The notes: a model not told the origin generated them from the letters alone. A stretch of DNA of 64,000 nt from an uncultured Thiotrichaceae bacterium (GCA_937925855.1 CALAMO010000027.1:62001-126000); one strand, 5' to 3'. Counted from the first letter of the stretch, positions 23,880 through 28,743 are shown. Numbers and translations: made by a program.

Positions 23880-24680
23880 TTATTTTACCTGATAGGAACG
23901 ACAGCAGCCTTTAATAAGGTCATCATTAAACTTACCCTGGACGCTAAACGCGACTCTCTTGTTCAGCAAGGTGCTGTGACAGGATTTATTATACGTCAGC
24001 ACAATCTCCAAACGATTCCATTTATTACGCCCACGAATTTCAGTCTCAAGTGCCACGTTACGGTACTGGCCGTGTTGCTGCCGCTGATGCACAATCGGCA
24101 TGCCAGTCTTGTGCGCGCCCAGGGTGCCCCGTAGCCACTGCGGTAATACCTCGACTTTCCAGTACGGCGAACGATTGCCGCATTCCAGCACCCACATGCC
24201 ACTCTGTTTTTTCTTAACGATTTGATCGGTGGGGGCAGGCGCAGACTGCGGCGTGGCGGTTACCGGATCAGTGGACGCACCAGCCACCTCTGCCGGCGAC
24301 TTGGCAGCATTAGCGCTCGTCGGTGGTTTAGCAGATGGGGCAGGCGACTCAGCCAGGGCCGCAGCGACCGCAGTTTTAGCAGAGCCCGCAGCCTGCTTGC
24401 CAAGATACGCCTTGCTCACCCAGCCGCGTTTATCCTGCCAGCTGATCTGCACCCAGTGCGTTTTGCCGACCTGTTGCGTGTCACCCAATAGCTCAATCCC
24501 AGTTGCGTCATGCGGCAGCTGTGCCACTGCATCCTGACCAACGCCTGGCCCAGCACGCATATTCAGCGTATCCCAGGATTCAACCTTAATGACCTGATAC
24601 GCCACAGCAGCCTGTACCGCAGAGACAAAAGTTGCACCGCTAAGCAGCAATGTGGCCACAAGAACGAATCGATTTTGCAT
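23880..24680 (-). CDS. secreted SH3-domain protein with C-terminal domain of unknown function
   Basis: A 266-residue exported protein. ATG 24680 has AAGGA about ten bases upstream and is followed by a clear signal peptide (FVLVATLLLSGATFVSAVQA). Next comes a bacterial SH3 domain (about residues 29-95): WDTLNMRAGPGVGQD is the classical LNVRSGPG-type motif and RGWVSKAYLG the closing strand. An Ala/Pro/Ser linker follows (about 96-150), then a C-terminal domain with WVLECGNRSPYWKVEV, a lone Cys in NKSCHSTLLNKR and a final GCCR. That layout resembles the COG3650-type domain that follows GNEPFW-like openings. It is the last gene of the rmuC-motor operon, 57 bases after the MotB-like gene. SH3 domains of this type often bind peptidoglycan. 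Confidence 0.8.
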   Translation of the reverse strand: MQNRFVLVATLLLSGATFVSAVQAAVAYQVIKVESWDTLNMRAGPGVGQDAVAQLPHDATGIELLGDTQQVGKTHWVQISWQDKRGWVSKAYLGKQAAGSAKTAVAAALAESPAPSAKPPTSANAAKSPAEVAGASTDPVTATPQSAPAPTDQIVKKKQSGMWVLECGNRSPYWKVEVLPQWLRGTLGAHKTGMPIVHQRQQHGQYRNVALETEIRGRNKWNRLEIVLTYNKSCHSTLLNKRVAFSVQGKFNDDLIKGCCRSYQVK

Positions 24681-24737
24681 GCTCAATATCCTTTTGAGAT
24701 TAAAAATATTTTCTACCGCCGCCCTTAAATTAATCAC

Positions 24738-25820
24738 CTACTGCACAGGATCAATCGCCTCCGGCGTTGTATCGGGCTGATAGTAATAGTCGTATTTATT
24801 CAACATATCACGAGTAAACAGCCAGGCTTGGTTATAGGAGAGGCCGCTATCTTCAGGAATAATAATCTTTACATAAAGATCATTCCCATGCTCGGCTTTC
24901 AGCGCAGCCAGCTCCAAATCAAGTGCCGCTAAATTAACATTGCGGTAGTCCGCTGCGCCGGGCCGACGAATACGGTAGCCCGACTTCTGATACATCACAT
25001 CAACCACGGTCTTACCCTTGGTAGAGCGCGTTGGTTTTAACAGCTTCTGGTATTTTTTGTTGAGCTCGTCATACTCGCCTTCCAGACTGGCTAGCCGAAG
25101 ACGCTCAGTCACGGTCTGCTCTCGCAGCGTCGCCAGCGACTGCTCGCTGTTGAAGTTTTCTTGCTGACTCGCAGCCAGCTCATTGCGCGCGGCCTCCAGC
25201 TCACTCTGTAAGCGTCCCGTTTCCAGCAGCAGATTTTGCTCTGCGCTCACTAATTCTTCCTGCAAACGCGCTCGCTCCAGCGTCAGTGCTTCGCGGGCCT
25301 GTGCCAATTCTCCTTGGAGGCGATTGCGCTCACTGGCGCGGGCTTGCTGCGCTTGATTCAGACTGCTTTGTAATTGGCTGGTGGTACGCATCTGCTGCTG
25401 TAGCGTTGTTTGCAGCACGGCAAGCTCCTGCTCACGCCGCTTAATAGTGCGGGCCTGACTAAGCTGCAAATCTTCCAGACGGCTTTGCTCAGCCATGCTT
25501 CGTGCTAGCTGGTTGCGCGTTTCTTCATCCTGCGCGCGGTTACGCAGTAGTTCCAGTTCCAAGGAAGAGGCGCGCTGTTGGAAATACTCCAGCTGCTCTT
25601 CCAACGTGGCATTTTCCCGCAGCGTAAATTCAGCCAGCTGGCTGGCCTGTTCTTCTGCGACCAGGCTGCTTTTCAGCTCATCCAACAGGCGCGTATTGCT
25701 CATCACCACGGCCACTGTGACCAATAAGAAGGTCATCACAATAACCATCATAATATCGGTAAACGAAGGCCAAAAACTGTCTTCAGTATCCTCGCTGTGA
25801 TAAAGATGACCCCAACTCAT
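24738..25820 (-). CDS. MotB/ExbD-like stator subunit with a long coiled coil
   Basis: A 360-residue inner-membrane protein with a short cytoplasmic N-terminus, one membrane helix (about residues 18-42) and a large periplasmic part. The helix opens FWPSFTDIMMVIVMTFLL; Asp22 sits where MotB, TolR and ExbD have their proton-carrying aspartate. Residues about 45-265 are a nearly unbroken Glu/Gln/Leu/Arg-rich coiled coil. The last 90 residues form a small alpha/beta domain (GYRIRRPGAADYRNVNL to LYVKIIIPEDSG, then NQAWLFTRDMLNKY). This is not an OmpA-type peptidoglycan domain as in MotB or ZorB and is more like an ExbD/TolR periplasmic domain. The ATG overlaps the stop of the MotA-like gene (ATGA). 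A 5:2 ion-driven stator pair is inferred. Confidence 0.78.
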   Translation of the reverse strand: MSWGHLYHSEDTEDSFWPSFTDIMMVIVMTFLLVTVAVVMSNTRLLDELKSSLVAEEQASQLAEFTLRENATLEEQLEYFQQRASSLELELLRNRAQDEETRNQLARSMAEQSRLEDLQLSQARTIKRREQELAVLQTTLQQQMRTTSQLQSSLNQAQQARASERNRLQGELAQAREALTLERARLQEELVSAEQNLLLETGRLQSELEAARNELAASQQENFNSEQSLATLREQTVTERLRLASLEGEYDELNKKYQKLLKPTRSTKGKTVVDVMYQKSGYRIRRPGAADYRNVNLAALDLELAALKAEHGNDLYVKIIIPEDSGLSYNQAWLFTRDMLNKYDYYYQPDTTPEAIDPVQ

Positions 25821-26776
25821 CGCGTGCGCCCACTGCTCTGAATAGACGAACGCTCTGCATCAAGCCGAAAGCCTTCCCGCAGCGATTCGCGGATCACCCG
25901 AATGTCGCGACTGCCAGAACCGATGCTATTCTGTAGCTCATCCACGGCCTGTTGCAGACGCTCACCCGCCTGTAAGAAGCGCTGCTGGATATGGGCAATC
26001 GACTCCGCCGTGAGACGCAGCTCCCCGGCCAGCACCGAGACATCATGCAGCAAATTACTTTCGACCGTACGGAACTGCGGCAATATGAGGCGCGCCGTGA
26101 CATCCTCGATATTCGCCAGTAACTGCGTGCGTATATCCTGGAGGCGCAAATGAAAATAAGTGTAGAACACATAGCAGATAATCGCAGTAATCGTCGTACT
26201 CAGCGCCATCGACATACCGCCGATAATCGTACCCATTTCCTCTAGGCTATCCGGCGAATCCAACAGCCCCGCCGCCCCAACCAACGCAACCGACAGCGAG
26301 ACAATCGTGCCAAAAACCCCTGCCAGTATTAGCGTATTATGCACAAAACGAATGAGCGTGAAGCGTGAGTTTTGGGAGGCAGCCAGGGTCGAGGCCAGCG
26401 CGCCCTGGTCGACATTCATGTGCTGCTCTGTGATTTCTTTGACCGCCATAAAACGATCCACAATCAGGGCATGCTGCACCATTTTATAGGTTGGATTCGC
26501 CACTTTGTCGCGCAGGCGCTGGATGAACTGATTTAAGGCGCCCTGCTCGCGCGCATAAGACAATACCAGCAAAATAATGCGCATGAGACCCAATAGAAAC
26601 AGCAGCAAGATCAGGCCATTCAATATCAGCCCAAGCTGTCCAGCCTGTCCAAGGTGGGTAGTTTGAAAAAACCCCAGCACCCAAGTCTTGTGATAAACCA
26701 TTAACCCGATGCTGAGCGACAGCAGAACCAGAATCTGTAACACCGTTAAATAACACCGCATCTTTATTGCTCTCAC
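25817..26776 (-). CDS. MotA/TolQ/ExbB-family proton channel subunit
   Basis: A 319-residue membrane protein with the four-helix plan of MotA/TolQ/ExbB. Helices lie at about residues 10-28, 48-75, 148-170 and 188-214. The last two carry the ion-path motifs VFGTIVSLSVALVG and GGMSMALSTTITAIICY, with Thr/Ser residues placed as in TolQ and ExbB. The cytoplasmic loop is 75 residues, and the C-terminal tail of about 100 residues is helical (AELRLTAESIA-like heptads). It starts four bases after rmuC and overlaps the MotB-like gene, so the pair should be made in coupled amounts. The start is GTG 26776 (GGGGAG seven bases upstream) or ATG 26761. Too large for ExbB, no flagellar genes nearby: a non-flagellar motor. 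Confidence 0.82.
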   Translation of the reverse strand: MRAIKMRCYLTVLQILVLLSLSIGLMVYHKTWVLGFFQTTHLGQAGQLGLILNGLILLLFLLGLMRIILLVLSYAREQGALNQFIQRLRDKVANPTYKMVQHALIVDRFMAVKEITEQHMNVDQGALASTLAASQNSRFTLIRFVHNTLILAGVFGTIVSLSVALVGAAGLLDSPDSLEEMGTIIGGMSMALSTTITAIICYVFYTYFHLRLQDIRTQLLANIEDVTARLILPQFRTVESNLLHDVSVLAGELRLTAESIAHIQQRFLQAGERLQQAVDELQNSIGSGSRDIRVIRESLREGFRLDAERSSIQSSGRTR

Positions 26777-26780
26777 TGCC

Positions 26781-28079
26781 TCACTCCCCGTCTTTTAAGC
26801 TAATTTCTGTCTGTACCGACCTACGTGGCACACCTTCCAGCGGCTCGGTTTCTGCCAGCTCTCGCCCTGATCCCGTACCCAACTCAGCCAGCTTACGCGC
26901 CCCAGGCAGCACATTACGCTCCAGTGAACCCAATAATTTATTATAAGTATCCACACTATCCGCGACGTGCTTACCCAAGCGGTCGACATGCGCGGTAAAT
27001 ACGCTCAGCCGCTTATGCAGCTCCACACCCACATCGCGAATCCGGCGCGCATTATCCGTCAACACGGACTGCTGCCAGCCAAACGCCACCGCGCGCAGCA
27101 GCGCCATTAAGGTCGCAGGCGTCGCCAAAATCACCCGCAGCTCCAACGCATCCTGCATCAAATTTTTATCACACTCCAGCGCCGCGCCTAAAAACTGTTC
27201 ACCCGGCATGAATAACACGACAAAGTCAGGTGCATTCTCAAACTGTTCCCAATAGCGCTTGCCCGCCAAAATGCGCACATGTTCTCGCACCCTTTTGGCA
27301 TGTTGCTGCAAATGCTGCTGGCGCCGCGTTTCATCCTCGCTTTCAAACGCATCCAAATATGCATCCATCGGCGCTTTTGCATCAATCACCAACTCACGCT
27401 TATCCGGCATACGGACTAACATATCCGGGCGAATCGTACGCTCCGCATTACTGCGCTGCACCTGCTCAGAGAAATCGCAATGTTCGGTCATCCCCGCCAT
27501 TTCAGCAATGCGTTTCAGGCTCAGTTCACCCCACTGGCCGCGCATCCCCGGCGTCCGTAGCGCCGTTGATAATTTACTGGTTTCTTGGCGCAGCGCCATC
27601 TGATCGACGCCGAGCTGGCGCAACTGCTCGCCTAAAGCGCCAAACGAAGCCTGCCGCTTTTGTTCAATCCGCTGAATCTGCTGCTCCGTTTTCTCTAGCG
27701 CCTGCTGTATGGGTGTGATCAGATGCTGAATCGATTGCTGGCGCTGGGTCAGGTCAGCTCTGGACTCAGTGTGGAAACGCCGCATGCTTTCCTGCGCAAG
27801 CTGTAGGAATTGCTGATTATTTTCCTGTAGGGCATGACGCGAAGCCGCAGAGAAGTTATGGTGCAAGCGATCCTGAGCATCATCCAGCATGCGCAGGCGC
27901 TCTTCATGCATCTGCTCTTCGTTTTTCAGCTGGAGCTGTAGACGCTCGACAGTGCGCCGGGCCTGCTGAAGCGGGCGACTGTAAATTAGATAAGCCACCA
28001 GCATCCCTAACAAAAACATCAGCAGGGCGACAATCAGCAGTATATTATCATCAATAATATGTCCAATGCCTACATTCAC
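26781..28079 (-). CDS. rmuC: DNA recombination protein RmuC
   Basis: A 432-residue membrane-anchored protein of the RmuC family, which in E. coli limits recombination between inverted repeats. Residues 13-33 form an N-terminal membrane helix, residues about 38-175 a coiled coil, and from about 178 the RmuC domain (GQWGELSLKRIAEMAGM, then a PD-(D/E)xK-like nuclease core with Asp219 in RPDMLV and Asp233/Lys235 in VIDAKAP). GTG 28079 is preceded by GAGGAG at a spacing of eight, a good start; there is no usable ATG near. It is the first gene of an apparent four-gene operon ending at the SH3 protein, an unusual partner set for RmuC. Confidence 0.9.
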   Translation of the reverse strand: MNVGIGHIIDDNILLIVALLMFLLGMLVAYLIYSRPLQQARRTVERLQLQLKNEEQMHEERLRMLDDAQDRLHHNFSAASRHALQENNQQFLQLAQESMRRFHTESRADLTQRQQSIQHLITPIQQALEKTEQQIQRIEQKRQASFGALGEQLRQLGVDQMALRQETSKLSTALRTPGMRGQWGELSLKRIAEMAGMTEHCDFSEQVQRSNAERTIRPDMLVRMPDKRELVIDAKAPMDAYLDAFESEDETRRQQHLQQHAKRVREHVRILAGKRYWEQFENAPDFVVLFMPGEQFLGAALECDKNLMQDALELRVILATPATLMALLRAVAFGWQQSVLTDNARRIRDVGVELHKRLSVFTAHVDRLGKHVADSVDTYNKLLGSLERNVLPGARKLAELGTGSGRELAETEPLEGVPRRSVQTEISLKDGE

Positions 28080-28176: not shown

Positions 28177-28743
28177 ATGAACGCAAGTCAACACACTCCT
28201 ATGATACCGCAGATGCAGAATGTTCACCGCCGGACAGGGCAGTTTATGGCAAAAACAACCGCGCTAATTATCACATTAATGGCGGGGCTTAGCCTATTCT
28301 CTGCCCCAGCGCTAGCGCTAAGCGATATGCAGGGCAAACCGCAAAAATTCAGCGACTTTATTGGCAAAGGTCAATGGACTGTATTTGAGGTATGGTCTTC
28401 ACAGTGTCCAGCTTGCCCAGATGCCGTTTTTTATATGAATAACCTGAAAAAACGCTACGCTAAAGCACAGCTGATTGGGATTTCAGTCGATGGCGATTAC
28501 GGCGCGGAAGGCCCCACGCTAGCTAAACGGTTTATCACACAGCATGAAATCAGCTTTCCAACGCTGTATAGCAGCACTGCCGAAGTAGATGAATGGCTTG
28601 GGCAGTATTCCGAAGTGCTGTTTGGCACGCCCTCGGTACTGTTTTTTAATCCACAGGGTGAACTGAGTAATATTGAGGTTGGCGCCATTATTTCTCAGGA
28701 TGTCATTGATTTTATTGAGCAGACCGAAAACAACTCGCGCTAG
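28177..28743 (+). CDS. TlpA-like periplasmic thioredoxin
   Basis: A 188-residue thioredoxin-fold protein. An N-terminal hydrophobic segment (about residues 27-48, ALIITLMAGLSLFSAPALA) is a signal peptide or anchor. The redox motif is WSSQCPACPDAV with CPAC at about residues 76-79, and the cis-proline loop is FGTPSVLFF. The GGxxDYG-type insertion ISVDGDYGAEG matches TlpA/ResA. It would act as a periplasmic thiol reductant. The ATG at 28177 has GAGG five bases upstream; the later ATG 28246 gives a shorter, cleaner signal peptide, so the start is uncertain. Divergent from rmuC and convergent with minE. Confidence 0.83.
   Translation: MNASQHTPMIPQMQNVHRRTGQFMAKTTALIITLMAGLSLFSAPALALSDMQGKPQKFSDFIGKGQWTVFEVWSSQCPACPDAVFYMNNLKKRYAKAQLIGISVDGDYGAEGPTLAKRFITQHEISFPTLYSSTAEVDEWLGQYSEVLFGTPSVLFFNPQGELSNIEVGAIISQDVIDFIEQTENNSR

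Follow-up and report, generated by a model that had tools for sequence, protein, structure and literature searches.

How 5:2 ion motors transfer motion to distant layers of the cell envelope is an open question for the Tol, Ton and gliding systems, in which the link is flexible or is provided by a separate protein. In ExbD, TolR and MotB the periplasmic link is short or flexible, and in Tol-Pal the tolQR genes are linked to tolA, tolB and pal. Zorya, which is found in defense islands, has its long coil in the ZorA tail, an OmpA-like head, and the partner genes ZorC, ZorD and ZorE. Non-flagellar motors have been classed as diverse in structure, bearing large additions in the periplasm (PMC12505986), and in TPH-vWA proteins that occur with TolQ homologues the axle subunit is fused to the transducer (PMC12204202). 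Here, we describe a pair of genes, A and B, that shares features with each of these systems. Like TolQ-TolR and ExbB-ExbD, the pair combines an ExbB/TolQ core fold and pore threonines in A with a membrane aspartate and a TolR/ExbD head fold in B. With MotAB and PomAB it shares four transmembrane (TM) helices in A, an Asp in the B helix and the ion-motor plan; with the TPH-vWA proteins it shares a proposed axle that acts as a force transducer, together with the conserved Asp and Thr ring (PMC12204202). By contrast with the Tol, Ton and gliding systems, however, the AB axle is itself a coiled coil.

The pair lies in a window of 64,000 nucleotides from an uncultured Thiotrichaceae bacterium (GCA_937925855.1 CALAMO010000027.1:62001-126000), where the original prediction had read four genes as one operon encoding an envelope motor system. 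Four open reading frames are indeed present at the predicted places, all on the minus strand, as are the features of A and B given below: rmuC (26781..28079), gene A (25817..26776, 319 aa), gene B (24738..25820, 360 aa) and a gene for a secreted SH3 protein (23880..24680). The predicted operon geometry is also borne out, with a 4-bp gap between the end of rmuC (26781) and the GTG start codon of A (26776) and an ATGA overlap of A and B at 25817-25820. The SH3 reading frame as listed begins directly after B, but an ATG at ~24680 that opens a signal peptide, 57 nt away, is the likelier start. A hairpin resembling the predicted terminator does exist 3' of the SH3 gene (23800-23776), but such hairpins are hardly commoner in the window than by chance (7 versus a mean of 5.6 in shuffled sequence). 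Pfam identifies the first protein as an ordinary RmuC (PF02646, E=3e-94) and finds one SH3_3 domain in the last (E=5e-7). In Thiotrichaceae genomes, many SH3_3 proteins share parts of the window protein (23880-24737), with up to eleven matches per genome. A TlpA/ResA-like thioredoxin gene (28177-28743) is divergent from rmuC, and genes of this kind often occur beside the AB locus in Thiotrichaceae, in one or two copies.

Gene A encodes the channel subunit and is a borderline member of the MotA_ExbB family (PF01618, with an E value, 2e-4, just under the cut-off). Its AlphaFold model (pLDDT 86, pTM 0.68) is all-helical and has a predicted ExbB/TolQ fold, with an extra N-terminal TM helix (residues 4-28), an ExbB/TolQ core (residues 31-248), further TM helices at about residues 44-72, 124-173 and 178-212, and a cytoplasmic tail helix (residues 239-302). 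In two structure comparisons of this model, ExbB and TolQ are the top matches (Z up to 13.6 over 207 residues), and ZorA (Z about 11) and MotA (Z about 9.8, not a strong similarity) rank lower; a sequence search of solved structures with A returned no match. Two threonines, Thr157 in GVFGT (26306..26308), the equivalent of the ExbB/TolQ pore threonine, and Thr195 in ALSTT (26192..26194), the second pore threonine, are invariant in an alignment of 50 diverse A sequences. GV[FL]GT surrounds Thr157 in 104 of 107 orthologs, and the TT at Thr195 aligns with the TT of the host ExbB. A differs from TolQ and ExbB by its additional TM helix and by a tail that closes with a GFRL motif (residues 302-305; 25862..25873), invariant as GF[RH]L at the end of the tail in all 107 orthologs. 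This conservation suggests a cytoplasmic contact, and the motif probably serves to dock a partner whose gene lies elsewhere.

Gene B encodes a single-TM axle subunit with a long coiled coil and a TolR/ExbD-like head. No Pfam family matches it above cut-off, only its membrane segment resembles ZorB and MotB, and a sequence search of solved structures returned coil or ZorB-like matches only. By profile, the membrane motif of B, W-x-S-F-x-D-[IL]-M, is closest to ZorB (E 1.5e-6). The aspartate of this motif, Asp22 (25755..25757; WPSFTD), lies in the N-terminal third of the TM helix and is kept in 97 of 97 sequences, as the original prediction had required of a true motor subunit. Not a single Cys follows the TM helix in 30,398 residues across orthologs; together with topology by homology, this absence fits an oxidizing periplasm, and we infer that the coil and head lie on the periplasmic side. 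The head (residues 257-346; 24783..25052) has the predicted order strand-strand-strand-helix-strand-helix, and structure matches to its AlphaFold model are led by two TolR structures (Z 7.9 and 7.5), with ExbD at Z 5.9. These matches outrank unrelated folds by a modest margin (Z range 5.7-7.9), and profile comparison of the head with the host TolR and ExbD found no match, leaving the likeness one of fold alone. A TolR/ExbD-like fold is thus predicted for the head, which supports the ExbD-like domain proposed originally. Pfam finds neither an OmpA family match nor a vWA domain in B, and vWA is likewise absent from the listed fold matches of the head. B differs from MotB and PomB in having no OmpA-like anchor, and appears to differ from the TPH-vWA proteins in having a TolR/ExbD-like head rather than vWA and a long, phase-locked coiled coil as its link (PMC12204202).

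Between membrane and head, residues 43-256 of B (25053..25694) form a periplasmic coiled coil of 214 residues, or about 32 nm, upholding the unusually long coil of about 220 residues that had been predicted. Orthologous coils range from 146 to 440 residues with a median of 178, which if straight would measure about 26 nm, roughly the depth of the periplasm. Across 22,821 residues the coils are devoid of Pro. Their hydrophobic pattern repeats mainly every 3.50 residues, with 101 of 103 orthologs giving 3.50 or 3.52. When phase is measured as the distance from the membrane Asp to a conserved Tyr of the head, 114 of 119 orthologs give a value of 3 or 6 modulo 7. The same holds for 27 of 32 distinct lengths, each counted once (about 2e-9 under a uniform null, with the choice of classes allowed for), and for 16 of 17 loci that were retrieved afterwards with other aims. 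A rough control based on regular-expression anchors revealed no modulo-7 clustering in the lengths of the A tail. Mapped on the A tree, B has undergone at least 41 length changes but 14 changes of modulo-7 class, indicating that insertions and deletions are mostly heptads or half-heptads, which would leave the hydrophobic seam unbroken from membrane to head. This quantized length supports a continuous, in-register rod over a flexible linker. Nevertheless, any continuous coiled coil should show heptad-preserving changes, which alone are no proof of torque transmission; phase conservation is necessary for a drive shaft, but a rigid spacer would show the same. An antiparallel hairpin is disfavored, as we infer from lengths that step by 3-4 and 7 residues rather than 14.

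Five orthologs leave the heptad lattice, including the window B itself (235 = 4 mod 7). Relative to its closest relative, L066, the window B has insertions of 7 and 36 residues, and it is the latter (residues 171-206; 25203..25310), situated in a run of 18-residue repeat-like units, that takes the coil off the lattice; a tandem-repeat search found no repeat at the DNA level behind this insertion. The longest coils, 440 residues or 65 nm, occur in one clade and exceed the usual periplasm, so the rod cannot always span it straight, and these coils must be bent or displaced to the side, unless the periplasm is wider. A Thiotrichaceae clade without rmuC (L034-L041, L060 and L061) has much longer coils, many of them with 280-440 residues, roughly double the norm. 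The length of the TolA frame proved unsafe as a yardstick of periplasmic width, with several TonB_2 proteins per genome.

The genomic neighborhoods define A and B as a pair. Scanning 84,980 species genomes with a B profile identified 347 relatives, of which 80 were kept and 70 have both genes whole. A and B are adjacent in all 70 of these loci, with gaps of -4 to +20 nt and one exception at -56 nt, and no third gene family lies beside either gene in more than 12 loci. In loci fetched from relatives, B follows A wherever the contig continues, and of 20 additional loci, drawn from other families and a second class of the phylum, 19 have the pair. In the remaining genome (G466) and a relative (G460), which represent one genus outside the class (L159, L173 and L174), A and B are unlinked on different contigs and both are retained. 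Four near-complete genomes without A are also without B. In one Thiotrichaceae genus (g6; G013 and G019), both A and B have been lost from the sampled near-complete genomes, one of which keeps rmuC, and this genus offers a natural comparison for AB function.

The distribution of AB is that of a core gene pair and not of a mobile defense system. A single-sequence search of genomes with A alone gave no matches, but the B alignment did find relatives. In a search of relatives, A is present in 55 of 95 genomes (a few by weak matches), almost throughout Thiotrichaceae and in single genomes of other families; across the class, 54 of 364 near-complete genomes, belonging to 40 of 272 genera, contain it, the matches being set off by a clear gap in score and all main matches but one having E<1e-67. 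A is also present in two families that belong to a different class within the phylum. Neighboring genes are housekeeping genes, with no conserved effector. In Thiothrix fructosivorans (L075), the record that carries AB is 446 kb long and titled plasmid pTfr446; in other complete genomes the pair is chromosomal. The host genome has three genes that pass the PF01618 cut-off, A, tolQ and exbB, the second within a complete ybgC-tolQRAB-pal operon and the third accompanied by exbD next to msbA- and lpxK-like genes. The original statement that tol and ton genes are missing is thus correct near the locus but not genome-wide, and with tol-pal and exbBD encoded separately, A is the third motor-type channel of this host and AB would be a third motor.

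The AB unit, the conserved Asp and Thr residues and the phase-locked coil are established at the level of sequence. Building on them, we think it rather probable that the two genes encode an ion-driven 5:2 motor of the inner membrane with a coiled-coil axle across the periplasm. In such a motor, an ExbB/TolQ-like pentamer of A would surround a B dimer, and the membrane aspartates of B would cycle past the pore threonines of A as proton flux through A steps the dimer. The axle would extend as an uninterrupted parallel coiled coil of 146-440 residues ending in the small TolR/ExbD-like head, and the rod could carry its movement, rotation or twist, directly to the peptidoglycan or the outer membrane. 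One subunit, B, would then do the work that is split between TolR and TolA, and at the cytoplasmic end GF[RH]L of the A tail could dock a partner encoded elsewhere.

Several other explanations merit consideration. RmuC, A, B and the SH3 protein could cooperate, coupling the motor to a nucleic-acid effector and a grip on the wall, as the original prediction proposed. The tight spacing of RmuC, A and B in the window fits this idea, as does the adjacency of RmuC to AB in 17 sampled loci of Thiotrichaceae, the family in which most rmuC genes stand beside A. This adjacency, however, is confined to a Thiotrichaceae clade and was never seen in the loci examined from other families. Moreover, rmuC, which is single-copy where present, is missing in three genera with AB, judged by their sampled genomes, and is retained in a genus without it, and the SH3 gene adjoins AB in four genomes only, with similar SH3 proteins sitting elsewhere in Thiotrichaceae genomes. 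Thus, tabulating neighbors confirms the co-occurrence of A and B but not that of RmuC and SH3. An obligatory four-gene system is refuted by the neighbor tables and the rmuC distribution, and any looser cooperation of the four seems to us highly improbable; judged by linkage, co-loss and the distribution of rmuC and SH3, the functional unit is AB, two genes rather than four, and both flanking genes are judged to lie outside the motor. An anti-phage motor related to Zorya has the ZorB-like membrane segment and the match of the A model to ZorA in its favor, and yet these similarities are limited: the ZorB family model covers only residues 9-62 of B (E 1e-5), NCBIfam ZorB1 scores 21.6 bits against a cut-off of 400, the ZorA family model matches A weakly (E 0.018), and ExbB/TolQ outrank ZorA in structure. 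Unlike Zorya, AB has no ZorC, ZorD or ZorE partner genes, carries its long coil in the B subunit and has a head that is TolR-like rather than OmpA-like. A defense-island setting and a Zorya-like combination of motor and nucleic-acid effector had also been envisaged, but nearly all members of the family carry the pair, searches of phage and PLSDB plasmid records gave no match, and PADLOC detected only generic helicase and Mad-type domains among the window neighbors, none convincing. We therefore give a defense role very little credence.

AB could instead replace or assist Tol-Pal or Ton in particular lineages, energizing a TolA- or TonB-like partner and representing no new type of transmission. 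The ExbB/TolQ-like core and TolR-like head are compatible with such a role. It is nonetheless doubtful, as the host already has complete tol-pal and exbBD, AB neighbors are unrelated, no TolA, TonB or other transducer gene is conserved beside AB, and B already has reach of its own through the coil. Alternatively, B might be static, serving as a tether or as an anchor to peptidoglycan, with A as a gated ion channel and the coil as a spacer or ruler rather than a drive shaft. TolR/ExbD heads can bind peptidoglycan, and coil length varies widely among lineages, which a transmission shaft need not tolerate; conversely, conservation of the Asp and both Thr residues suggests ion-coupled cycling, and conservation of phase suggests that more than length matters, although any continuous coiled coil shows phase too. 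We consider a static tether unlikely, if worth keeping in mind. Our best reading remains that AB is a variant of the 5:2 ion motors, its axle bearing a rigid trans-periplasmic shaft. By sequence features, the pair falls within the 5:2 superfamily and outside Zorya, Tol-Pal and the flagellar stators, with no flagellar genes near it, and the original view of A and B as an ion-motor-type pair gains from their conservation across many families.

No described family in Pfam, NCBIfam or the Zorya models fits B or the AB pair, and the searchable papers contain no description of a B subunit that joins a long coiled coil to a TolR-like head, in agreement with the original prediction, although subscription coverage is thin and absence is not proof. 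AB could tentatively be regarded as an undescribed class of direct-drive trans-envelope motor, a proposal we hold at a little less than even weight, in which the shaft would be phase-locked to the Asp, the roles of TolR and TolA merged, and a cytoplasmic docking motif added. A coiled-coil axle of measurable length and phase would make rotation or twist testable by insertions. More broadly, about 15% of the Gammaproteobacteria species sampled carry AB, which also occurs in a second class of the phylum. The pair would be a third, widespread envelope motor for a large bacterial group, whose carriers include many named sulfur-oxidizing filaments and symbionts, among them Thiothrix, Thiolinea, Thiofilum, Leucothrix, Thiodiazotropha and tubeworm symbionts.
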